From: a virus
Direction: 5' to 3' (one strand)
Virus record (IMG/VR): IMGVR_UViG_3300032282_001534
Coordinates: 1 to 46,829 of that record
DNA: 46,829 bases
The notes beneath the pieces were generated by a model. It searched no databases and was not told the DNA's origin. It saw nothing but the letters and a program-made list of their open reading frames with translations. Positions within the stretch are counted from its first letter, which is position 1. Each line of letters begins with the position of its first letter. This document shows positions 8,446 to 46,829 of this stretch, one piece after another. A program made the translations under genes and the position numbers.

Positions 8446-9531
8446 ATGTCTTCTTTGTTAGAACAAGCAATTATTGACGCAACAGCACTTAAAGAAGCTG
8501 CACTTAAAAACGCAGAAGCTCAAGTCTTAGAAAGATATTCAACAGATGTAAAAGAAGCTTTAAAAAATCTTCTAGAACAAGAAGAAGGTTTTACTGAACC
8601 ATCTGCTACAGAACCAACTGGAACAGGTACATCTGCTACTGGTATGGGTGGTGATCAAGCAATGGGTGGTGGTGCAAATATAAAAAATCAAGCACCATCA
8701 GCATTTAGAGATGGTCAAAAATTATGTGCTTGTCCAGAAGATAAAGAACAAGTAACAATTGATTTAAATCTTTCCGATATTGAAGATATGGCAAATGAAG
8801 CAGGAATTCCAGTTGGTGGAAATATGCCAAACCCAGCTACACTAGGTCCAACTCCAAGCGCACAATCAGCAGGGCTTCAAGAAGAATATGAAGTTAATAA
8901 AGATGAGCTTTTAGATCTTTATGAAAAACTTACAGTTGATGCAAGAAACGTTCCTTATGGAAATATAGAGTATCCTGCAAATTCTCTTGAAGTTGAATAC
9001 GCAAAAGATATTTCACTTGCAAAGAAAGCACAACTTGCAGCAGAGCAAGAAGCCTCAGAAGTTGTACAAGAAAACAATAAACTTACAAAAGAAAATAAAA
9101 TATTAGCAAGAAAACTTGATTCAGTTCAAAACAAACTTGCTAAAATTTCTGAAATTGCAGAAGCACTCGCAAACAGAGTTGAAGAGTACGAATCAGCAGT
9201 TTCAACACTTAAAGAGAGGCTTGATACAATAACAGTATCAAATGCCAAACTTTTATACAAAAATAAAGTATTGAATAGTAACTCCTTGAATGAGCGACAA
9301 AAATTTAAGATTGTCGAAGCACTATCCAATGCAGAATCAGCAGATGAAGCAAAAACAATCTATCAAACACTTCAAAGCACCGTGTCGAGTGACAATAAAG
9401 TTGCTGCTCCAAAATCACTTAGCGAAGCAATAAATAGAACTTCATCAATCATAATGCAAACCAGACAAAACGATGCACCACCTCCAGTAATTGAGAGAAT
9501 GCAAAGATTAGCTGGTATTAAAAATAAATAA
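8446..9531 (+). CDS. Prohead scaffold (core) protein, gp22-like
   Basis: 361 residues from ATG 8446 (GGAG at 8433; an upstream in-frame TTG at 8431 lacks any ribosome site and is rejected). It is Ala/Glu/Lys-rich, with a predicted long coiled coil from about residue 185 to 290 (AEQEASEVVQENNKLTKENK and on), a Gly/Met/Thr-rich low-complexity segment (about 60-85) and an N-terminal helix containing L-L-E-Q-E-E. It lies directly upstream of the major capsid gene, where T4 carries gene 22. It would assemble inside the prohead and be degraded by the prohead protease, which is not in this window. Assignment rests on position and coiled-coil character. Confidence 0.75.
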   Translation: MSSLLEQAIIDATALKEAALKNAEAQVLERYSTDVKEALKNLLEQEEGFTEPSATEPTGTGTSATGMGGDQAMGGGANIKNQAPSAFRDGQKLCACPEDKEQVTIDLNLSDIEDMANEAGIPVGGNMPNPATLGPTPSAQSAGLQEEYEVNKDELLDLYEKLTVDARNVPYGNIEYPANSLEVEYAKDISLAKKAQLAAEQEASEVVQENNKLTKENKILARKLDSVQNKLAKISEIAEALANRVEEYESAVSTLKERLDTITVSNAKLLYKNKVLNSNSLNERQKFKIVEALSNAESADEAKTIYQTLQSTVSSDNKVAAPKSLSEAINRTSSIIMQTRQNDAPPPVIERMQRLAGIKNK

Positions 9532-32322: not shown

Positions 32323-32351
32323 TTGACTAACTAACGAAACGGGTGTATCTT
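32323..32351 (+). promoter_or_regulatory. Sigma70-like promoter overlapping a terminator, upstream of uvsX
   Basis: TTGACT (32323-32328), 17-nt spacer, TATCTT (32346-32351). The -10 spans the end of the 5' arm and the loop of the terminator at 32337. A start near 32358 would lie inside the 3' arm, so the new transcript would not carry the hairpin. Confidence 0.5.
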
Positions 32352-32371
32352 ATGGGTACACCCGTTTTCAT
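32337..32371 (+). terminator. Intrinsic terminator after gp32-like gene
   Basis: AAACGGGTGTA (32337-32347) pairs perfectly with TACACCCGTTT (32357-32367), 11 bp with 9-nt loop. The T-run is short (TTTTCATTT). It separates gp32 from uvsX. Confidence 0.85.
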
Positions 32372-33532: not shown

Positions 33533-33567
33533 GCTCCGTGGGGTTGACTTCCTCACGGGGCTTTGTT
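33533..33567 (+). terminator. Terminator-like hairpin with a -35 hexamer as its loop
   Basis: GCTCCGTGGGG (33533-33543) pairs with CCTCACGGGGC (33551-33561), 11 bp with two G-T wobbles. The 7-nt loop is TTGACTT. The tail TTTGTT is a weak T-tract. It follows the uvsX stop by 18 bp. Confidence 0.65.
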
Positions 33568-33572
33568 ACTAT
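33544..33572 (+). promoter_or_regulatory. Sigma70-like promoter upstream of the deaminase gene
   Basis: TTGACT (33544-33549), 17-nt spacer, TACTAT (33567-33572). The -35 is the loop of the terminator-like hairpin. A start near 33579 would give a leader of about 18 nt with GGAG at 33582 before ATG 33597. Confidence 0.5.
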
Positions 33573-37041: not shown

Positions 37042-38433
37042 ATGACTACAGCCTCTACAAACGAGAGGAGTGACTTTTCTCGTTTCGGAAAAAGCTTTCA
37101 AGAGAGTCTAGTACAACTTATCCTTATGGATCGTCCTTTTTGTGACCAAATCCGTGAGGTATTTTCTATTGAATTTCTTGAGCTAAAGTATCTCCAAGCA
37201 TTCGTGCAGATTGTATTTAGCTACAAAGATAAATACAAAATTCATCCTACATTTGACATTATGACCACACTTATTAGATCTGGTCTTGATGATCAAAATG
37301 AAACCGTGCAAAAGCAGGTTCGTGATTTCTTTGCTCGTATGCAGGATGCAGAACCAGACGGTGCTCAATTTATCAAGGAAACCTCTCTTGATTTCTGTAA
37401 GAAGCAGAAACTAAAGGAAGCAATGTTGAAGTCTGTTAAACTTCTTCAATCTGCTTCTTTTGATGAAATTTCTAAGACAATCAATGAAGCTCTTAAACTT
37501 GGTACAACCTCTGATTTTGGTTATGATTATCTTGTAGATTTTGAAAAGCGTTTCCAACTTAAGTCTCGTAATCCAATCGGTATGGGTTGGATTGAGGTTG
37601 ATAGTATTTGTAAGGGTGGTCTTGGTACTGGTGAGCTTGGAGTAGTTATTGCTCCTACTGGTGCTGGTAAATCAATGGTGCTTGTACATCTTGGAACAGA
37701 GGCACTAAAGGCTGGAAAGACTGTAGTACACTATACTCTTGAACTTGCAGACTCTGTTGTTGCTTCACGTTATGATAGTTGTCTTACTGGCATTGAGTTG
37801 AAAGACTTGTTTACTTTCAAAGAGCAAATTTTTCAATCGGTACAGGATTTGGCTGGTAAACTTATTGTAAAGGAGTATCCAACCAAGTCTGCATCTACTA
37901 ATACTCTTAAATTGCATCTTGAAAAACTAAAGATTAAGGGTATCAAGCCAGATATGATTATCGTAGACTACGGTGATCTTCTTCGACCTATTTCTAATCA
38001 GAAAGAGAAGAGACAGGAACTTGAAACTATTTATGAAGAGTTACGAGGATTAGCACAAGAGTATACTTGCCCTGTTTGGACGGCATCACAAACTAATCGC
38101 TCTGGTCTAAATGCAGAAGTAATTACGATGGAATCAATCTCAGAGGCATTCAATAAATGCTTTGTTGCTGATTTTATTTTTTCTGTTTCTAGAACGGTTG
38201 AGGATAAAGCTTCAAACTCTGGTAGAATCTTTGTAGCTAAAAACCGTAATGGCCCAGACGGTCTTGTCTATCCAATCTTTATGGATACAAGTAATGTTAA
38301 GATTAAAGTTTTGCCCTCGACAGGAGAGACACCATCGGACATAATGGTTAGAACTTCTAAAGAGCAAGAAGATAATCTAAAGAAGAAATACTCAAAATAT
38401 AAAAAGAAAAAAACGGAGGATGGTGATGTATAG
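37042..38433 (+). CDS. Replicative DNA helicase, DnaB/gp41-like
   Basis: 463 residues. Walker A is A204-PTGAGKS (K210); then VVHYTLELADSVVASRYDS, Walker B PDMIIVDYGDLLRP, and CPVWTASQTNRSGLNAE (sensor/H3). The first ~170 residues correspond to the N-terminal domain for hexamer and primase contacts. DnaB-type ring helicases unwind the fork 5'-3'. Length matches T4 gp41 (475). No primase gene is visible in this window. It overlaps the next gene by 8 bp. Confidence 0.88.
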   Translation: MTTASTNERSDFSRFGKSFQESLVQLILMDRPFCDQIREVFSIEFLELKYLQAFVQIVFSYKDKYKIHPTFDIMTTLIRSGLDDQNETVQKQVRDFFARMQDAEPDGAQFIKETSLDFCKKQKLKEAMLKSVKLLQSASFDEISKTINEALKLGTTSDFGYDYLVDFEKRFQLKSRNPIGMGWIEVDSICKGGLGTGELGVVIAPTGAGKSMVLVHLGTEALKAGKTVVHYTLELADSVVASRYDSCLTGIELKDLFTFKEQIFQSVQDLAGKLIVKEYPTKSASTNTLKLHLEKLKIKGIKPDMIIVDYGDLLRPISNQKEKRQELETIYEELRGLAQEYTCPVWTASQTNRSGLNAEVITMESISEAFNKCFVADFIFSVSRTVEDKASNSGRIFVAKNRNGPDGLVYPIFMDTSNVKIKVLPSTGETPSDIMVRTSKEQEDNLKKKYSKYKKKKTEDGDV

Positions 38434-40831
38434 TAGAGAGGAAGTTAATAAATCAAGTTTAGAATATTTTGGCGGTGATGAACTAGCTGCAAACGTATTT
38501 ACTACAAAATATGCTCTTAAAAGCAAAAGCGGTGAATATCTAGAGACAACCCCAGATGATATGCATAAGCGAATTGCAAAAGAGTTTGCTCGTATTGAAT
38601 CTAAGTTTGGAGGAGAAAGTGCTCTAGACTTTGAAACAATTTATAATGATATTAAAGATTTCAAATACATAGTACCACAAGGTTCCCCTATGTATGGAAT
38701 TGGTAATAATGAAACAATTGCATCTTTGTCAAATTGTGTAGTTGTTGCCTCACCAGAGGACTCAGTTTCATCAATTGTTGATTCTGGCAAGCATCTTGCA
38801 AACCTTTTTAAACGCCGTTGTGGTGTTGGTTTAGATATTTCTAATCTACGACCAGAAGGAATGACTGTAAATAATTCAGCAGGTACTACAACTGGTGCTT
38901 GGTCGTTTGCTGATTTTTATTCGTATGTTTGTCGTATGATTGGTCAGAATGGTCGTCGCGGTGCGCTTATGATTTCTCTTGACGTAAGACACCCAGACGT
39001 TGAAAAGTTTGTTACAATGAAACATGATCTAACAAAGGTTACAGGTGCAAATGTCTCAATCCGAATCTCAGACGATTTTATGGAAGCTGTGGAGCAAGAT
39101 CAAGATTTTACTCTTAAATTTCCTGTTGATTCCAACAATCCTACTTACTCTAAAACTGTTAGAGCCAGAGATTTATGGAAAAGTGTCGTTGATTCTGCGA
39201 CAAAAACGGCAGAGCCAGGACTCCTAATGTGGGGAAACATTGAGAAATACCTACCAGCACAAAGTTATGCAGAAAAAGGATTCAAAACACTTACAACTAA
39301 TCCTTGCGGCGAAATTCCTCTTTCTGCCTATGACTCTTGCCGTTTGATCTCAGTGAATCTCAAATCATTTGTAGTTAATCCATTTGAATCAAATTCATAC
39401 TTCCATTTTGAAAAATTTGAAAGTGTTGTAAAACGTGCAATGCGTCTTTCTGACGATCTTGTAGAACTTGAAGTTGAGAAGCTTACAAAAATTATTGGTG
39501 CTTGTGATAGCCAAGACGAAAAAGAGCTTTGGACTAATCTTCTAAGAGCTTGTACTGATGGTCGTCGTACAGGTCTTGGTACTCACGGTCTTGCTGATGC
39601 GCTTGCTTGTCTTGGTATGCCATACGATTCAGCAGATGCACTTGTTACAATTGATAAAATTTATAATACTCTTAAAGAAAGTGCTTATACAGAATCAGTT
39701 TGGCTTGCAAGAGAGCGTGGATCATTCCCAGTATTTGATTGGGAACTTGAAAAAGATAATGGCTTTATCAAATCACTGTCATCTTCACTTCAAAATGCTA
39801 TTAAGTCATTTGGACGCAGAAACATTAGCATCTTAACAAATGCTCCAACTGGTTCTGTTTCAATTATGTCACAAACTTCATCTGGTCTTGAGCCTGTATT
39901 CCGCAACTTCTATATTCGCCGTCGTAAACTTTCTCACAATGAGCAAGATCAAATGGCAGCTTTTGTAGATGCTATGGGAGATAAATGGACTGAATACAAA
40001 GTTTATCATCAAAATGTTCAAGAATACTTAAAGCGTTTTGAAACCGAAGAAGTTCCTACTTTCTTTACAGAATCAGATAAAATTGATTGGAAACGTCGTG
40101 TTGAAATTCAAGGTGTAATTCAAAAACACATTGATCATTCAATTTCCTCTACAATCAATCTTCCAAAAGGTACAGAACCAGAAGTAGTTTCTGAGCTTTA
40201 CCGTCTTGGCTGGAAACTTGGTCTTAAGGGTATTACTGTTTATGTTGATGGTTCCCGCGATGGTGTTCTTATTACAGAAACCAAGAAGGAAACTTTTCCA
40301 CAACATAATGCTCCAAAACGCCCAACAACTCTTGAAACTGACATTCACAACCTTACAATTAAGGGAGAAAAATGGACTATTCTTGTTGGACTAATGGATG
40401 GAAAACCTTACGAGATTCTTGGTGGAGCAAACAAAATTGTTGATCTTCCAAAGAACGCAAAGAAAGGACAACTTGTAAAAGTATCAACTGGTAAGAATCA
40501 AGCTAGATACGATTTGATTGTTGATGATTTAACTGTCAAGGATGTATCTAAAGTATTTGATAATCCAAACTACTCAGCATTTACAAGACTTCTTTCATTG
40601 TCTCTACGTCATGGTGCCCCAATTAACTATGTTGTAGAGCAGATGCAGAAAGAACAAGATTCAGATATGTTCTCATTTGCCCGTTCTATTTCAAGAGTCC
40701 TAAAGCAATATGTTCCAGATGGTACAAAAGCCACAGGCCAAAAGACCTGTCCAGAGTGTAATTCAACTAACTTGATTTACCAAGACGGATGCGTTACTTG
40801 CTCAGACTGTGGAAATAGCAAGTGCGGCTGA
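38426..40831 (+). CDS. nrdJ: Class II (B12-dependent) ribonucleotide reductase
   Basis: 801 residues from ATG 38426, with GGAGG 6 nt before it; the ATG at 38420 touches that site and is rejected. Motifs in order: LSNCVVVASPED (first active-site Cys), RCGVGLDISNLRP, NPCGEIPL (292-299, active-site Cys C294), GLGTHGLADALACLGMPY, APTGSVSIMSQTSSGLEP. The C-terminus is a Cys-rich tail (C775-PEC778, then CVTCSDCGNSKCG) that recycles the active-site disulfide. Class II enzymes use adenosylcobalamin and need no NrdB subunit. No nrdA/B genes are in the window. The host must supply B12. Confidence 0.85.
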   Translation: MYSREEVNKSSLEYFGGDELAANVFTTKYALKSKSGEYLETTPDDMHKRIAKEFARIESKFGGESALDFETIYNDIKDFKYIVPQGSPMYGIGNNETIASLSNCVVVASPEDSVSSIVDSGKHLANLFKRRCGVGLDISNLRPEGMTVNNSAGTTTGAWSFADFYSYVCRMIGQNGRRGALMISLDVRHPDVEKFVTMKHDLTKVTGANVSIRISDDFMEAVEQDQDFTLKFPVDSNNPTYSKTVRARDLWKSVVDSATKTAEPGLLMWGNIEKYLPAQSYAEKGFKTLTTNPCGEIPLSAYDSCRLISVNLKSFVVNPFESNSYFHFEKFESVVKRAMRLSDDLVELEVEKLTKIIGACDSQDEKELWTNLLRACTDGRRTGLGTHGLADALACLGMPYDSADALVTIDKIYNTLKESAYTESVWLARERGSFPVFDWELEKDNGFIKSLSSSLQNAIKSFGRRNISILTNAPTGSVSIMSQTSSGLEPVFRNFYIRRRKLSHNEQDQMAAFVDAMGDKWTEYKVYHQNVQEYLKRFETEEVPTFFTESDKIDWKRRVEIQGVIQKHIDHSISSTINLPKGTEPEVVSELYRLGWKLGLKGITVYVDGSRDGVLITETKKETFPQHNAPKRPTTLETDIHNLTIKGEKWTILVGLMDGKPYEILGGANKIVDLPKNAKKGQLVKVSTGKNQARYDLIVDDLTVKDVSKVFDNPNYSAFTRLLSLSLRHGAPINYVVEQMQKEQDSDMFSFARSISRVLKQYVPDGTKATGQKTCPECNSTNLIYQDGCVTCSDCGNSKCG

Positions 40832-40840
40832 TAAAATAAC

Positions 40841-40869
40841 TTGACATAAACCTCCTAATTGATTATTTT
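40841..40869 (+). promoter_or_regulatory. Sigma70-like promoter with -10 in a hairpin loop
   Basis: TTGACA (40841-40846), 17-nt spacer, TATTTT (40864-40869). The spacer contains the 5' arm of the hairpin at 40849. A start near 40876 would fall inside the 3' arm, so the RNA would lack the pairing partner of its Shine-Dalgarno. Confidence 0.5.
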
Positions 40870-40895
40870 AATGATAATTGATTAGGAGGTTTTTT
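40849..40895 (+). promoter_or_regulatory. Terminator-like hairpin burying the Shine-Dalgarno of the next gene
   Basis: 40849-40866 pairs with 40874-40891 over 18 bp with two T-G wobbles (T40860-G40880, G40861-T40879) and a 7-nt loop. The 3' arm contains AGGAGG (40884-40889), the ribosome site of ATG 40896, and TTTTTT follows at 40890-40895. Read-through RNA from nrdJ would either terminate here or have the ribosome site paired. Confidence 0.7.
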
Positions 40896-41123
40896 ATGTC
40901 TATTAAGTTAAATCATTTAGTACCAAGACAGGATAGGGATAAAAAATGTGATCCACAAGACTCAAACAGTAGAACACATTTCTTTATCTTTACTGGTCAT
41001 GTAGAATCAAAATTTAATGGTCTTATCCAAGTAGATTTTGTTTGTAAACATTGTGAAAGAAGGGTAACAAGCTTTCTAACTCAAGAAGATTACCAAACTC
41101 ACAAAAAATCATTAGGTGCATGA
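40896..41123 (+). CDS. Small Cys/His-containing protein of unknown function
   Basis: 75 residues from ATG 40896; an in-frame TTG at 40878 lies upstream of the Shine-Dalgarno and is rejected. Sequence features: KCDPQDSNSRTHFFIFTGHV, then VDFVCKHCERRVTSF with C-x2-C and a C-terminal His (QTHKKS), so a small zinc site is possible. It is expressed from a region with terminator and promoter overlapped (40841-40895). It overlaps the next gene by ATGA. I recognise no family. Confidence 0.65.
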   Translation: MSIKLNHLVPRQDRDKKCDPQDSNSRTHFFIFTGHVESKFNGLIQVDFVCKHCERRVTSFLTQEDYQTHKKSLGA

Positions 41124-41401
41124 TGTATTATTTATCCCCACGAAACAAGTTCTTGCTTGTTGAACATACTGAGGTTAAGATAGAACAACCTCAACACGCT
41201 TTCGTTCTTCCTACAGACTATAGAGAAAAAGAGAAGCCACATAAGGTGGTTCGTGTTATAGAGGATTCGACAGAGAAGTATGAACCAGAAAGTTTGATTC
41301 TTGTTCCAACTCATATGTTAGAAGAAGTTGATTTAGATGGTGAAAAACACTATCTTATTCAAGAAAATTATGTATTAGCAACCGTAACCAAGGAGGGTTA
41401 A
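41120..41401 (+). CDS. GroES-like co-chaperonin (gp31-type)
   Basis: 93 residues, the size of GroES. Pattern: SPRNKFLLVEHTEVKIEQ (domain opening, like P-L-x-D-R-V-L-V), a loop with AFVLPTDYREKEKPHK (mobile loop position), VVRVIEDST, then ESLILVPTHMLEEVDLDGEK and a closing strand (YLIQENYVLATVTKEG). T4 gp31 replaces GroES and is needed to fold the major capsid protein gp23. It is recognised by overall pattern rather than an invariant motif. Two adjacent ATGs; the first fits the ATGA overlap. Confidence 0.5.
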   Translation: MMYYLSPRNKFLLVEHTEVKIEQPQHAFVLPTDYREKEKPHKVVRVIEDSTEKYEPESLILVPTHMLEEVDLDGEKHYLIQENYVLATVTKEG

Positions 41402-41658
41402 TGTCAGACGCACTAAGCCGTGAAGAGCACATTGCAAATTATGTTCGTAATCTTGCAACTATTGAGGAAGCAATTCAACCATTTAAAGATCAAATGAAAG
41501 ATCTTCGTAAAGAATATGTTGACAATGCTTGGCTTACAAAAGAAGACATTAAAATGGCTGTAAAGGCTTACCGTCTTTCTAAAGCCAAAGTAAACATGGA
41601 TGAGCTTGTAGAGAGTCATAATACTCTTGTAAGTAAATTTGTAATTAGTGAGGAATAA
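41401..41658 (+). CDS. Small helical protein, possibly GapR-like
   Basis: 85 residues, AAGGAGG ribosome site, start overlapping the previous stop by one base. It is helical: EEHIANYVRNLATIEEAIQP, then FKDQMKDLRKEYVDNAWLTK and DIKMAVKAYRLSKAK. The layout of one long helix with I/L-E spacing followed by 'x-D-x-K-x-x-x-K' recalls the DNA-binding GapR/DUF2312 family, but I would not assign it on sequence alone. If correct, it would bind overtwisted DNA. Confidence 0.55.
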   Translation: MSDALSREEHIANYVRNLATIEEAIQPFKDQMKDLRKEYVDNAWLTKEDIKMAVKAYRLSKAKVNMDELVESHNTLVSKFVISEE

Positions 41659-41660
41659 AA

Positions 41661-42143
41661 ATGGAACCAGTAGTAGCAGAAGAAGTAGCAGTAGAAGGCG
41701 TAGTTACTCAAGAACAACAACCAGTTATTGAAGAATTACCCCCGCCAACAGATGTTACTATAACTAGAACAAGTACTTATGAACAAATAGATGGTGTAAG
41801 GCAATATCCAAGCTTATATGATACTTATGGTTCAACAATGATTGCGATTGTTTTTGCAGTTGCAATTGTTACAGCAGTTATTGGTATCGTTCAATATATT
41901 TATCGTAAAGCAGCATCAGATCATTCTGCATTGACACAATTTGTTACTACAATGTTTGCTTTGATTGCTGGTATTTTTGTAGCAGATAAAATTGTTGCTG
42001 GCCCATCAACACAACTTCTTCATGGTCAAGAGTCTCTTAAAATACTTGAATTTATTCAACAGACTTGTTTGATGGTGTTTGCTTATTACTTTGGCACAAA
42101 AGCACAACCACCAAAAGATGGTCCACTTCACAAAGAGGAATAA
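41661..42143 (+). CDS. Three-segment membrane protein, holin candidate
   Basis: 160 residues. Three hydrophobic segments: residues 59-81 (MIAIVFAVAIVTAVIGIVQY), 91-113 (LTQFVTTMFALIAGIFVADK) and 126-146 (ending MVFAYYFGT). N-terminus is acidic (residues 1-58), C-terminus polar and short (QPPKDGPLHKEE). Three segments with a short charged tail suit class I holins, but no lysin gene is nearby in the window. No recognised family motif. It starts 2 nt after the previous stop. Confidence 0.6.
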   Translation: MEPVVAEEVAVEGVVTQEQQPVIEELPPPTDVTITRTSTYEQIDGVRQYPSLYDTYGSTMIAIVFAVAIVTAVIGIVQYIYRKAASDHSALTQFVTTMFALIAGIFVADKIVAGPSTQLLHGQESLKILEFIQQTCLMVFAYYFGTKAQPPKDGPLHKEE

Positions 42144-42854
42144 ATGAAATCTATTGATATTTATGGTGATGGAATTGGTAAAGTAGAACTTGTAGACTAT
42201 ATGGGTTCAGACCTTACTGTTGTAAACTCAGCCCGCGTATCTTTTGGTAAACATAAAGAGGAGTTAGATGAAAAAGATGAGAAACTTATCGATTATCTTA
42301 TTCGTCATAAGCATACTTCTGTATTGGAGCACAATCTAATTACTTTTAGATTTAAAGTTCCTTTATTTGTTCGTTCACAACATCATAGGCATCGCACTTG
42401 GTCTTACAATGAAATTAGTAGAAGGTACACAGACTTTAATATTGAGTTCTATGAACCAAAGGAATACAGACTACAACATGCTTCAAATCGTCAAGCTTCA
42501 ACTAATGAGACATTTAACCCAAAATTCTACAATGATGGGTTTGGTATCGAACACTCTGCAACTACAATTGTTGCTGGACACCTCAAGCACAGTCTTACTC
42601 TTTTCAATAAGTTAATTGAGCATGGAGTGTGCAGAGAACAAGCAAGAATGGTACTGCCACAAGCAATGTATACAGAATATTATGGAACAGTAAATCTTGG
42701 TAATCTACTTAAGTTTATTGATCTTAGAAGCCACGAAGGCGCACAATGGGAAATTCAAAAAGTTGCTGAGGCTTGTTTAGAAATTGCAAGTGAACTTTAT
42801 CCAAAGACAGTTGCGGCTTATAGAAAGATTGTAGATGAAAGGCATAGTTCATAA
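42144..42854 (+). CDS. thyX: FAD-dependent thymidylate synthase ThyX
   Basis: 236 residues. The ThyX motif R82-H-R84-T-W-S87-Y-N-E-I-S92-R-R-Y95 is intact. VLEHNLITFRFKVPLFVRSQ is the preceding conserved segment; the C-terminus LRSHEGAQWEIQKVAEACLE is also typical. It makes dTMP from dUMP using methylene-THF and FAD with NAD(P)H. It starts right after the membrane-protein stop and overlaps the next gene by 20 bp. With NrdJ and the deaminase it forms the dNTP supply set of the phage. Confidence 0.92.
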   Translation: MKSIDIYGDGIGKVELVDYMGSDLTVVNSARVSFGKHKEELDEKDEKLIDYLIRHKHTSVLEHNLITFRFKVPLFVRSQHHRHRTWSYNEISRRYTDFNIEFYEPKEYRLQHASNRQASTNETFNPKFYNDGFGIEHSATTIVAGHLKHSLTLFNKLIEHGVCREQARMVLPQAMYTEYYGTVNLGNLLKFIDLRSHEGAQWEIQKVAEACLEIASELYPKTVAAYRKIVDERHSS

Positions 42855-43785
42855 ATATGATAGAATAATAATAGGGGCTACTATTGAGTCCCTATTATAT
42901 GCTCTATTTACGAGAACTCCAGTATTTTACGTTGTTCCAAAAGTTCCAACAACTTTCGATACGGTAACAATAGGAACAAGTTATAAAATACTGAAGATCT
43001 TTCCAGAACTAGTCGAAATAGTATCAAACAAAAACAAAGAACTAACCAGACCTCAAAAACAATTAATTTGGGGTAGGTTAGTTTTTTTGTTATCTATTCT
43101 TGGTCTTATGCCAGCTTCAAATTTACAAACAATAAGAATAGAAGATAATATTGTCAAATTAACAACCGAGAACTCTCGATTAATTAAATTAGAAGTTAAT
43201 AAAATTTTACTATTTGATGATGATGGAATTGAAGGTTTAGATCTACCACTAATTGAAAATACACGTTATGTTGTAAAAGATTTTATTCAATTCAATAATC
43301 TTAAATTTATAGATAAAGAGTATGATGTAATTTATACTGATTATGATACCGTAAATCAAATTTGGTTTTTAAAATCAAAAGATAAAAGAAGAAAGTTTGA
43401 TGGTTGTCTTATTTCGTATTGCGAAGATCTAAAAGATCTTCAAGATAATTTAAATGATTATAATATTAAATTTATTTTAAAAGAACAGTTTAAACAATAT
43501 AATTTAAAAGGCAGAGAAAACGGTTATTCTGATTCTGGTAAGCAAAAACATAGACCAGTTTCTTATAAATTTACAGAAAGAATAATACAAAAAGAAAAAT
43601 GTAATGTTTATGAAAACACACAGTATTTAACTTTTATGAATTATTCTGTTCAAGAAATAATGATTATGTTTGATAAAATACCATACAGAGAGTATATGTT
43701 ATGCGAGAAATTGTTGAAGATCAGTACACAACGCCGAAAATCGCGCACCTCGCAGGGATCGTACCGATTGCGGGTAAAGCCTTAG
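42835..43785 (+). CDS. Phage protein with Rossmann-like N-terminus, unknown function
   Basis: 316 residues. The start YDRIIIGATIESLLYALF followed by PVFYVV is like the N-terminal beta-alpha-beta of FAD/NAD-binding proteins (I-I-I-G-A-x-x-E), but the third Gly of the dinucleotide motif is missing. The rest (PQKQLIWGRLVFLLSILGLM, VYENTQYLTFMNYSVQEIMI) is AT-rich with no catalytic motif I know. It overlaps thyX by 20 bp and the next gene by 85 bp; its C-terminus (ISTQRRKSRTSQGSYRLRVK) is very basic because of the second reading. Confidence 0.6.
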   Translation: MKGIVHKYDRIIIGATIESLLYALFTRTPVFYVVPKVPTTFDTVTIGTSYKILKIFPELVEIVSNKNKELTRPQKQLIWGRLVFLLSILGLMPASNLQTIRIEDNIVKLTTENSRLIKLEVNKILLFDDDGIEGLDLPLIENTRYVVKDFIQFNNLKFIDKEYDVIYTDYDTVNQIWFLKSKDKRRKFDGCLISYCEDLKDLQDNLNDYNIKFILKEQFKQYNLKGRENGYSDSGKQKHRPVSYKFTERIIQKEKCNVYENTQYLTFMNYSVQEIMIMFDKIPYREYMLCEKLLKISTQRRKSRTSQGSYRLRVKP

Positions 43786-44573
43786 ATTTTCAAATGCCTT
43801 GGCACGATGCTATGATGCCACTTGCACCAAATTATATAGCAGCAGAAAGAGCAATACTTGAGTGTGCTTGGGCTGGTTGTGAAACTATTTGGGTTGTTTG
43901 TAATGAAGACATAGCAAGAGTTATAAAGAATAAAATTGGAGAGTTTGTATACGACCCAGTTAGAAGCTATTTTAAACATAAAATGCCAGATGGTAAAATA
44001 GCTACAATGTTTAAAAAAATACCAATTTACTATGTACCAGTATTTACAAAGAATAGAGCAAAATTAAGTCTCCCTTATTCTGTTATACAGGGTGCCTATA
44101 ATGCTTACCACGCAAGTTGGGTATTATCTAAATGGATGCTGCCAGCTATGTATTATGTAGCATTTCCGTATGGAGTTTATTCTCCAAAAATTGTATCAAA
44201 AAACAGAGAAAGATTATCAACTTATACAAATCATCTTGTAACTAATAGTGACGGAAAAACGGTATTAGATGGTGAGTATTTAGGATTTACATTTTCACGA
44301 AAACAGTATAAAGAATTTAGAAATGTAATAACCAAGAAAAAGGTAGATAAAGATTGGATTGATTATAATCTTGACGACGTTTTTAACCGAGTTATTGTAA
44401 CAGAACATGAGCCAGTAAAGATTAAAAATTATCATAATATTTCAAATTGGGATGGTTATTGTAAGTTTTTAGGTTCTGACCAAACTAAATACTATACCAA
44501 TAATACAATAAAAAAATACTTTGTTGACAAGTCTTACACGTTGTATGGTATGATAGATGAACCAGAGGAGTAA
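43701..44573 (+). CDS. Nucleotidyltransferase-like protein
   Basis: 290 residues. The N-terminus IAHLAGIVPIAGKALDFQMPW followed by MMPLAPNYIAAERAILECAW and AGCETIWVVCNEDIARVI has the order of GT-A sugar nucleotidyltransferases (G-I-x-P-x-A-G, lead residue, then A-G-x-x-x-I-x-x-V). The signature Gly-x-Gly-T-R and acidic metal residues are not clear, so the enzyme activity is uncertain. Start at 43701 is required to keep HLAGIVPIAGK. The overlap with the previous gene is 85 bp and locally GC-rich. The end carries a possible promoter for the next gene (44524). Confidence 0.5.
   Translation: MREIVEDQYTTPKIAHLAGIVPIAGKALDFQMPWHDAMMPLAPNYIAAERAILECAWAGCETIWVVCNEDIARVIKNKIGEFVYDPVRSYFKHKMPDGKIATMFKKIPIYYVPVFTKNRAKLSLPYSVIQGAYNAYHASWVLSKWMLPAMYYVAFPYGVYSPKIVSKNRERLSTYTNHLVTNSDGKTVLDGEYLGFTFSRKQYKEFRNVITKKKVDKDWIDYNLDDVFNRVIVTEHEPVKIKNYHNISNWDGYCKFLGSDQTKYYTNNTIKKYFVDKSYTLYGMIDEPEE
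44524..44554 (+). promoter_or_regulatory. Weak sigma70-like promoter candidate
   Basis: TTGACA (44524-44529) is perfect, but the best -10 (TATGAT, 44549-44554) needs a 19-nt spacer, which is suboptimal. It lies at the end of the upstream gene, and a start near 44561 would put GAGGAG and GTG 44578 correctly downstream. Confidence 0.3.
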
Positions 44574-44577
44574 AGTC

Positions 44578-45024
44578 GTGGGTATGTTTGATACTATTGA
44601 AGTTATTGAAGACATTAAAGACGGCCCAGATGCTGGTGAGTACCAAACTAAAGATCTTGGTTCTTACCTTGATAATTATTTTATTAAAGATAATAGGCTT
44701 TGGTTAATTAAAAGAAGAATTGAAGTTGTACCAGAAGCCGAAAGAAAACATCCTGTACTTGGTATGTTTCGTTCTATTGAAGAGGAAACAGTAGACCTTT
44801 GTTATCATGGATGGTTTGAAATGTACGGCCCTTATACAACTTGGAAACTTAAATTTACAGATGGAGAACTTATGCAAAGTATTTTTGTACCACACGATAC
44901 TGATACCGCCCCTGTTAGTGGCAGTACAGCAGAAGATTGCCAAGATGATACGGAAGAAATAGTTGCACATTGGAAGGGTGATGGTTATGTTCCAGAACCA
45001 GACTATGACGACTACGAGGGGTAA
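44578..45024 (+). CDS. Conserved small phage protein, unknown function
   Basis: 149 residues from GTG 44578, placed 7 nt after GAGGAG; an in-frame ATG at 44557 lies before that site and an ATG at 44584 is possible but further away. The opening VGMFDTIEVIED and GEYQTKDLGSYLDNYFIKDN are the hallmark of an unnamed family common in tailed phages (M-F-D-T-I, then x-Q-T-K-D-L). It has an acidic C-terminus (PEPDYDDYEG). No enzymatic motif. It is adjacent to the polymerase gene. Confidence 0.7.
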   Translation: MGMFDTIEVIEDIKDGPDAGEYQTKDLGSYLDNYFIKDNRLWLIKRRIEVVPEAERKHPVLGMFRSIEEETVDLCYHGWFEMYGPYTTWKLKFTDGELMQSIFVPHDTDTAPVSGSTAEDCQDDTEEIVAHWKGDGYVPEPDYDDYEG

Positions 45025-46829
45025 ATGAATAACGAAATTAAGTTTGTTGGACTTCACGCACATTCTGTAGCAGGTTCAATCTTTGATGGTATGGGATATC
45101 CACCAGACCACATGGATTTTGCTTATTCTAATGGAATGGATGCACTTGCTTTGACTGACCACGGAAATATGAATGGTCTTTCGTGGCAAGTTCTCCATGC
45201 AAAAAAGATGAAGAAGGAAGGTAAGGACTTCAAACCTATTTTTGGTGTTGAGGCTTACTTTATTCCTTCTATTGAAGATTGGCGTGCAGAATATGAAAAG
45301 CACAAGGAAGATAAGAAGAACAAGACAGAAGATGAATCCGTAACAGGTGCAATTGTAGAGGACGAAGGCGCATCAAAGAAAGAGATTAAATCTCTTCTTA
45401 ATCGTCGCCGTCACCTTGTTCTTCTTGCACAAAATCAGCAGGGTCTAAATAATATTTTCAAGCTTGTTTCTGAAAGTTACAAGACTGAGAATTATTACCG
45501 CTATCCTCGCATGGATTACACAATGCTAGAGAAGTATAACGAGGGTGTAATTGCCCTTTCTGCTTGTCTTGGCGGTGTTTATGCTGGATGCTATTGGGAG
45601 AATAAGGACAAGGGTGAGGAAGCAATTCTTGATTCTTTCCGTACAGTAACAAAGCGAATGGTTTTCATTTTTGGTGATCGTTGGTATGGCGAGCTACAAT
45701 GGAATAACGTACCAGAGCAGCACATTCTAAATAAGTACATTATCAAGATGCACGAAGAGTTTGGTATTCAACTTGTAACTACCTGTGACAGTCATTATCC
45801 AAATCCAGATGCTTGGAAAGACCGTGAGCTTTATAAGCGTCTTGGTTGGCTAGGTAAAGGCAAGCCAGAGTGGGCAGAAGGCAATTCAGAACTTCCTGCT
45901 GGTGTTGATGAAATTGGATACGAGCTTTATCCAAAAAATGGTGATCAAGTATTTGAGTCTTTCCAAAAGTACTCAAAAGAGTGTGGTGTACATTATCAAC
46001 AAAGTCTAGTTCTTGAGAGCATTACAAATAGTTACAAGATTGCACACGAACGTATTGAAAGCTTTATGCCAGATAATACCGTTCGACTTCCTAACTTTGT
46101 AGTGCCTGCTGGTTATACTGCTGGTGAGGCTCTACGTCATTATTCTATGGAAGGTATGCGTAATCTTGGTTTGCTTGATAAGCCAAATTACATTAAGCAA
46201 CTTGATCAAGAACTTGACGTAATTGAAGATAGAGGATTTAGTAAATATTTCCTCACAATGAAGGCTATTTCAGATAAAGCTCAAGGAATGCAACTAGTTG
46301 GCCCAGGTCGTGGTTCTGCTGCTGGTTCGCTTGTATCTTATGTACTTGGAATTACTCAAGTAGACCCAATTAAACACGGGCTTCTATTTGAGCGTTTTAT
46401 GACAAAGAACCAAGATGGATTCCCAGACATTGATTATGACGTTTCTGACCCAATGGTACTTAAAGATGTTCTAATCAAAGAGTGGGGAGATACTACAGTA
46501 GTTCCAATTTCTAACTGGAATACTCTACAACTTAAATCTCTTGTTAAAGACATTAGCAAGTTTTATAACATCGAATTCAAAGAGGTAAATGAAGTCACTT
46601 CTAAAATGATGCTTGAGGCTACACCACTTGCCAAGCAAAAACATGGAATCAAATCTGGTGTTTATACGCCAACATTTGAGGAGGTAAAAGAGTATTCTGC
46701 AACACTACAAGGATTCCTTAAAAAGTATCCGCACATTGCAAATCACATTAATGCTCTTTATGGACAAGTTCGCTCTTGCTCTCGTCATGCTGGTGGTGTT
46801 GTAGTTGGTGAAAATCTTGATCAATACAT
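45025..46829 (+). CDS. dnaE: DNA polymerase III alpha (DnaE, family C), 3' truncated by window end
   Basis: 601 complete codons from ATG 45025 to the window edge; ATG directly follows the previous stop. I translated it line by line and it is one open frame. N-terminal PHP domain: H11-AHS and T-D45-H46-G. Then the family-C polymerase core: LVGPGRGSAAGSLVSYVLGI (G426 on) followed by VDPI, and PDIDYD (467-472), the catalytic aspartate motif; the third catalytic Asp lies beyond the window. A Lys/Glu-rich insertion (about 90-115) occurs after the PHP start. T4 itself uses a family-B polymerase, so this is a replacement. It probably is the main replicase. Confidence 0.9.
   Translation, partial: MNNEIKFVGLHAHSVAGSIFDGMGYPPDHMDFAYSNGMDALALTDHGNMNGLSWQVLHAKKMKKEGKDFKPIFGVEAYFIPSIEDWRAEYEKHKEDKKNKTEDESVTGAIVEDEGASKKEIKSLLNRRRHLVLLAQNQQGLNNIFKLVSESYKTENYYRYPRMDYTMLEKYNEGVIALSACLGGVYAGCYWENKDKGEEAILDSFRTVTKRMVFIFGDRWYGELQWNNVPEQHILNKYIIKMHEEFGIQLVTTCDSHYPNPDAWKDRELYKRLGWLGKGKPEWAEGNSELPAGVDEIGYELYPKNGDQVFESFQKYSKECGVHYQQSLVLESITNSYKIAHERIESFMPDNTVRLPNFVVPAGYTAGEALRHYSMEGMRNLGLLDKPNYIKQLDQELDVIEDRGFSKYFLTMKAISDKAQGMQLVGPGRGSAAGSLVSYVLGITQVDPIKHGLLFERFMTKNQDGFPDIDYDVSDPMVLKDVLIKEWGDTTVVPISNWNTLQLKSLVKDISKFYNIEFKEVNEVTSKMMLEATPLAKQKHGIKSGVYTPTFEEVKEYSATLQGFLKKYPHIANHINALYGQVRSCSRHAGGVVVGENLDQY

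Follow-up and report, generated by a model that had tools for sequence, protein, structure and literature searches.

A predicted promoter nested in a terminator-like, putatively Shine-Dalgarno-masking hairpin downstream of nrdA in a phage genome record

In phage T4 genes e, soc, 49 and I-TevI, and likewise in segB and in mobE of Aeh1, the Shine-Dalgarno sequence (SD) is masked in early or middle RNA, and an internal late promoter yields RNA in which the SD is unmasked (PMC3014915, PMC2988022). Gene e had been named, correctly, as the precedent for the hairpin considered here by an initial annotation, which placed a terminator, a mask and a promoter in one element. A second kind of compact unit, the PeSL (promoter early stem-loop) cassette of phages RB49 and phi1, was reportedly described by Arbiol et al. 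2010; the cassette is said to join a strong sigma-70-like promoter and a terminator stem-loop in one small unit, and the RB49 stem-loops of this sort are said to be effective terminators.

The window, which is the whole 46.8-kb phage record (46,829 nucleotides), carries genes for tail sheath, tape measure, gp32-like, RecA/UvsX-like, DnaB-type helicase, NrdA and ThyX proteins. The end of nrdA is separated from the next ATG, at 40896, by 64 bases that contain the whole element up to that ATG. Within one 58-base stretch (40841 to 40898), a predicted terminator, an SD mask and a promoter overlap in a single hairpin, as follows.

38420 to 40831, forward strand: ribonucleotide reductase large subunit gene (nrdA), the upstream gene, whose transcripts would enter the element
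40841 to 40846, forward strand: -35-like hexamer TTGACA, which the stem does not include but closely follows
40848 to 40866, forward strand: 5' arm of the hairpin, within the promoter spacer; its CCTCC pairs with the SD
40864 to 40869, forward strand: -10-like hexamer TATTTT, spanning the top of the 5' arm and the beginning of the loop; spacer 17
40874 to 40892, forward strand: 3' arm of the hairpin with the SD inside, from folding and covariation
40875 to 40877, forward strand: predicted start of RNA from the internal promoter, 7 nt past the -10, which would leave the 5' arm untranscribed
40884 to 40889, forward strand: SD AGGAGG, 6 nt from the ATG
40890 to 40895, forward strand: T6, the predicted terminator U-tract and also the spacer between SD and start codon
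40896 to 41123, forward strand: gene under the putative control of the element, encoding a 75-aa Cys-containing small protein

The 40896 protein had no above-threshold match in Pfam or PHROGs and none in the cultured phages searched, so the function of the gene gives no clue. From 40896 to 45024 the genes follow one another closely, the majority overlapping or lying at most 2 bases apart, and the terminator scan of the window listed no forward terminator-like site from 40892 to 45560; the element therefore seems to stand at the head of an operon with thyX among its genes. No Rfam family (riboswitch, thermometer etc.) reached its gathering score on the element, and a search of the 46.8-kb record, which may be a fragment, found no copy other than the element itself.

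The 18-pair stem first annotated (40849-40866/40874-40891), with AGGAGG in its 3' arm and T6 before the ATG, was recovered as described, and the pair 40848:40892 extends it to 19 pairs, including 2 inner G-U pairs (40860:40880 and 40861:40879). When 40820-40930 was folded as RNA, the energy was -35.7 kcal/mol, whereas shuffled sequences averaged -15.1 (z -6.7) and none of 200 folded as well. This stable stem followed directly by T6 has the form of an intrinsic terminator as predicted from sequence, and it was picked up by the terminator scan; its strength is uncertain, as the stem is AT-rich above the CCTCC/GGAGG base. In the long RNA the start codon was also paired, its partner being the -35 region (GACAU with AUGUC in 40841-40902). 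In some relatives the corresponding pairing is between UGACAA and UUGUUA, and the mask may thus extend to the AUG in several lineages.

With sigma-70 recognition assumed, TTGACA-N17-TATTTT matched at 10 of 12 positions, with 4 of 6 in the -10. Promoter-like matches of this kind occur at chance level in the AT-rich window (37 found, 32.2 expected, sd 6.1) and, because they are no more frequent than that, it is conservation in relatives, not the match by itself, that makes the promoter in the window credible. Orthologs were gathered by means of the 40896 protein alone, never by means of the element. The close set comprised 20 loci (L277-L296) of at least 46% identity, giving 16 distinct elements with that of the window included. 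All 20 kept TTGAC followed by A or G, a spacer of 16-17 nt, a TANNNT hexamer, the hairpin, the buried SD, the ATG and a T-rich spacer between SD and start codon. In the 16 distinct elements, TTGAC never varied even though the stem does not include it; within the -10 hexamer, the T, the A and the last T were invariant or nearly so. Eight distant orthologs (L297-L304; 31-37% identity) lacked the element. The commonness of promoter-like matches in the window would suit an ordinary terminator that happens to overlap promoter-like letters; however, TTGAC and TANNNT at fixed spacing persist through 16 distinct elements whose stems have been rewritten, and a -10 peak at spacer 17 recurs in independent elements (below), which makes such a coincidence highly improbable. 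The predicted nested promoter is thus conserved in both hexamers.

Masking was to be given up, according to the initial annotation, if relatives showed no covariation. The ortholog stems were found to be as divergent as CCTCCTAATTG, CCTCTATATGG, CCCCTACATGG and GCTCCCGATTGG, and two-sided compensatory changes occurred at 10 of the 19 stem pairs with 94% of cells paired, so the proposal stood. These counts were made on a hand alignment of the orthologs, in which a one-base deletion was mirrored in both arms and which leans towards structure, because RNAalifold on the MAFFT alignment misplaced that deletion in five sequences. Among 8 lineage representatives, none of 2000 shuffles matched the observed percentage of paired cells or the number of doubly changed cells. 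The near-perfect inverted repeat overlaps the promoter, as would a dimeric regulator site or a cruciform acting at the DNA level. The strand test on the stems, in contrast, gave 236 Watson-Crick pairs, 32 G-T, 0 A-C and 1 other mismatch; this excess of top-strand G-T over A-C is not favoured by a DNA palindrome or protein site, and it is the pairing and not the stem sequence that is conserved. The DNA-level explanation was rejected through this asymmetry and is held to be very improbable. The same asymmetry indicates that the top-strand RNA is what folds and, as judged from these comparisons, that RNA containing both arms, i.e. read-through RNA, is under selection to fold.

All 15 scored orthologs had at least 5 T among the 7 bases before the ATG, compared to none of 41 other genes of the window, indicating that the U-tract is a selected feature; some orthologs have weaker tracts (TTATTT, TATTACT). 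This finding bears on the proposal that the hairpin is purely a translational mask of the T4 gene e and I-TevI type with no real termination. Identical logic is proven in T4 (PMC3014915, PMC2988022), and SD burial is universal among the orthologs. However, a pure mask does not account for a T-rich spacer kept in the orthologs and missing from the 41 other scored genes, and the class as a whole was discovered as GGAGG-T6 hairpins. The RB49 stem-loops of the PeSL sort, moreover, are reportedly effective terminators. Masking with no real termination is accordingly regarded as unlikely.

When long transcripts from the window and from the orthologs were folded in silico, the probability that the SD is unpaired was 0.0 in each of them. 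For window RNA starting at 40874-40878 the predicted value rose to approximately 0.7, in agreement with the claim that an SD hidden in the long RNA is freed by an internal start. The short RNAs of most orthologs gave 0.2-0.8, and the exceptions were L294 and L295, in which the short RNA was predicted still to pair most of the SD (0.02-0.07 unpaired).

Comparison of the orthologs showed a hairpin selected as RNA, together with conservation of the promoter hexamers, the SD burial and the T-rich spacer. As for termination, the start site, the difference in translation and the timing, we infer the following. Polymerase arriving from the nrdA side would transcribe both arms, and the hairpin and U-tract would stop most of it; in RNA that reads through, the SD and AUG would be buried, and the 40896 gene would go untranslated from such RNA. 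The sigma-70-type promoter, with its -35 just before the stem and its -10 at the top, would start RNA in the loop or 3' arm. RNA started there would lack the 5' arm and so could form neither terminator nor mask, its SD would be free, and its start codon would lie approximately 20 nt from the 5' end. The packed genes from 40896 on would then follow the schedule of their own promoter, apart from the nrdA unit. The element is thus read as a compact operon boundary that combines terminator, SD mask and its own promoter and insulates the genes from 40896 on from the nrdA unit, a reading that we consider likely, and the initial interpretation was largely supported by the sequence comparison.

Promoters and terminators were also found combined at other positions in the window and in its relatives.

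32323 to 32368, forward strand: second composite, TTGACT-17-TATCTT, whose -10 falls within the loop of the terminator, preceding the RecA/UvsX-like gene (32390)
33533 to 33572, forward strand: third composite, in which TTGACT is the terminator loop and TACTAT follows the T-run, preceding the dCMP deaminase gene (33597)
L103, L115 and G012:22251-22294: fourth composite, carried by relatives past the end of the window

The SD lies outside the hairpin in both the second composite, which is conserved in G005 and G012, and the third, whose stem has been rewritten with compensatory changes and pairing kept in relatives G005 and G011. The fourth has TTGACA-17-TAGTAT in a CCCTCC/GGAGGG hairpin (TTGACACCCTAACCCTCCTTAGATAGTATGTCTCTGGAGGGTTT) and probably precedes a UvdE-like gene with a TTG start. 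The cultured phage RB49 has many early promoters with a hairpin filling the spacer (TTGACA-GGGGATCGGCGATCCCC-TATACT), one early promoter with TATAAT in the loop (record 3201), and at the modB start (L323, record 9420-9482) the arrangement TTGACA-17-TATTAT-CCTCC..GGAGGC-T6-ATG, with the SD in the 3' arm.

These composites are relevant to whether masking has any role of its own. It could be that only a terminator and a promoter overlap here for compactness, the SD sitting in the 3' arm because GGAGG is a convenient stem base. The T-run is present in every scored ortholog, the element heads packed genes of which the later ones would be silenced by termination only, neither of the two other composites in the window has its SD within the hairpin, and most such RB49 promoters have their hairpin between -35 and -10 and their SD after it. 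Yet the SD is buried in all orthologs, even where the U-tract is weakened, and in long RNA the -35 region is paired with the AUG as well; the compactness explanation is possible, if on balance doubtful. The role of mask originally given to the hairpin stood in that SD masking is predicted, but the hairpin and T-run are also a predicted terminator. Termination probably does most of the insulation in the operon boundary proposed here, since only termination protects genes further down, with SD masking as a back-up or second lock.

To look beyond this locus, viral contigs were scanned for TTGACA-N2-22-CCTCC-N10-40-GGAGG-T6, the -10 being left out of the pattern. The scan gave 47 stretches, 32 of them distinct, in which matches to TATAAT peaked at spacer 17 (mean 3.25 of 6, compared to roughly 1.1-2.5 at other spacings). 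Where a hairpin was followed by an ORF, 18 of 26 distinct viral sequences matched the -10 at 4 or more of 6 positions when the spacer was exactly 17, compared to 14% at other spacers; none of 5 viral terminators without a following ORF had that many at spacer 17. The peak was absent when TTGACA was placed 23-50 nt upstream and when the hexamer was scrambled, and these two controls ruled out a chance TTGACA over hairpins. The genes behind the independent elements encode dUTPase, dCMP deaminase, 5'-3' exonuclease, adenylosuccinate synthetase (PurA) and unknowns. Relatives of four independent sigma-70 elements were sought in cultured phages and none was found. The same signal was present in bacterial genome contigs (16 of 46 with hairpin and ORF, compared to 5 of 66 without ORF), many of them Clostridia MAGs. 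In the examples L159, L170, L166, L149, L137, L126 and L134, which are mostly from Clostridia, the genes behind the design include one of the FUR family, one for an MFS transporter, one for a MazE-like antitoxin and others. Part of the bacterial contigs could belong to mobile elements. Because CCTCC/GGAGG was fixed in the pattern, the scans sample only one version of the design; a broad promoter-over-hairpin count was too permissive for statistics and its use was limited to listing candidates.

Several hairpin-led genes (L024, L026, L042, L046, L048) resembled HNH/zinc-type homing endonucleases by eye and in this recall T4 I-TevI and Aeh1 mobE; a Pfam search of fragments of these genes gave no endonuclease match.

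A late-promoter version was also observed: in marine T4-like contigs an ATG is preceded by a CCTCC..GGAGG-T5 hairpin with the core CTAAATA in its loop, and such a hairpin occurs before an ATG in Synechococcus phage ACG-2014e too. At least 120 stretches were found, compared to 14 for the control hexamer ATAAAT, 5 of the 14 being shared, a strong enrichment; the version was seen in L344, L241, L338 and about 40 distinct sequences.

That promoters nested in an intrinsic-terminator and SD-masking hairpin form a widespread, repeatedly evolved class of gene starts marking operon boundaries is an evenly balanced proposal. If true, the same letters would give opposite outcomes for read-through transcription and for own initiation, and the class would span sigma-70 forms in uncultured T4-like phages and Clostridia-rich bacterial contigs and a late-promoter form in cyanophages. 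The T4 trick of hiding the ribosome site from read-through RNA appears to extend beyond a few late genes: a more compact form, with a fused terminator and an ordinary sigma-70-type promoter, recurs ahead of unrelated genes. Annotation pipelines that keep terminators and promoters separate and non-overlapping would miss the element, and the design is small and would serve as a ready-made insulated gene start.

The literature searched, of incomplete coverage, did not describe any promoter lying inside a terminator/SD hairpin. As in T4 e, 49 and I-TevI, the SD and start codon are predicted to be helical only when the 5' arm is transcribed, folding and covariation agreeing in silico that the SD is sequestered in read-through RNA. 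From the conserved hexamers, RNA of the internal promoter is predicted to begin within the loop or 3' arm and so to omit the 5' arm, which would match the T4 siting. In contrast to the T4 masks, which use the late promoter TATAAATA, the window element has the sigma-70-type TTGACA-17-TATTTT and no TAAATA. It is further set apart in that its hairpin ends in a U-tract and hence is also a predicted terminator, and in that the 40896 gene is not an endonuclease or lysozyme gene. As in the RB49 PeSL cassettes, a sigma-70-like promoter and a stem-loop share one cassette, and as at RB49 modB the SD lies within the 3' arm, followed by T6 and ATG. In most RB49 cassettes, however, the hairpin fills the -35/-10 spacer with the SD outside, whereas the window hairpin begins in the spacer, passes the -10 and reaches as far as the SD, which it buries. 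The RB49 copies also resemble one another, whereas the window element is single within a 46.8-kb record that may be a fragment, with no dispersed, similar, recombining copies there. The cyanophage version (e.g. ACG-2014e) similarly has a promoter core in a GGAGG hairpin directly before the ATG, but that promoter is a late phage promoter and the genes it precedes are mostly of structural type (by eye), whereas the window element is of sigma-70 type. Since it follows the logic of the T4 masks without their late promoter and with a terminator added, and is PeSL-like in another register with the SD buried, the window element is two known ideas combined, and it is the combination that is new, not the kind.
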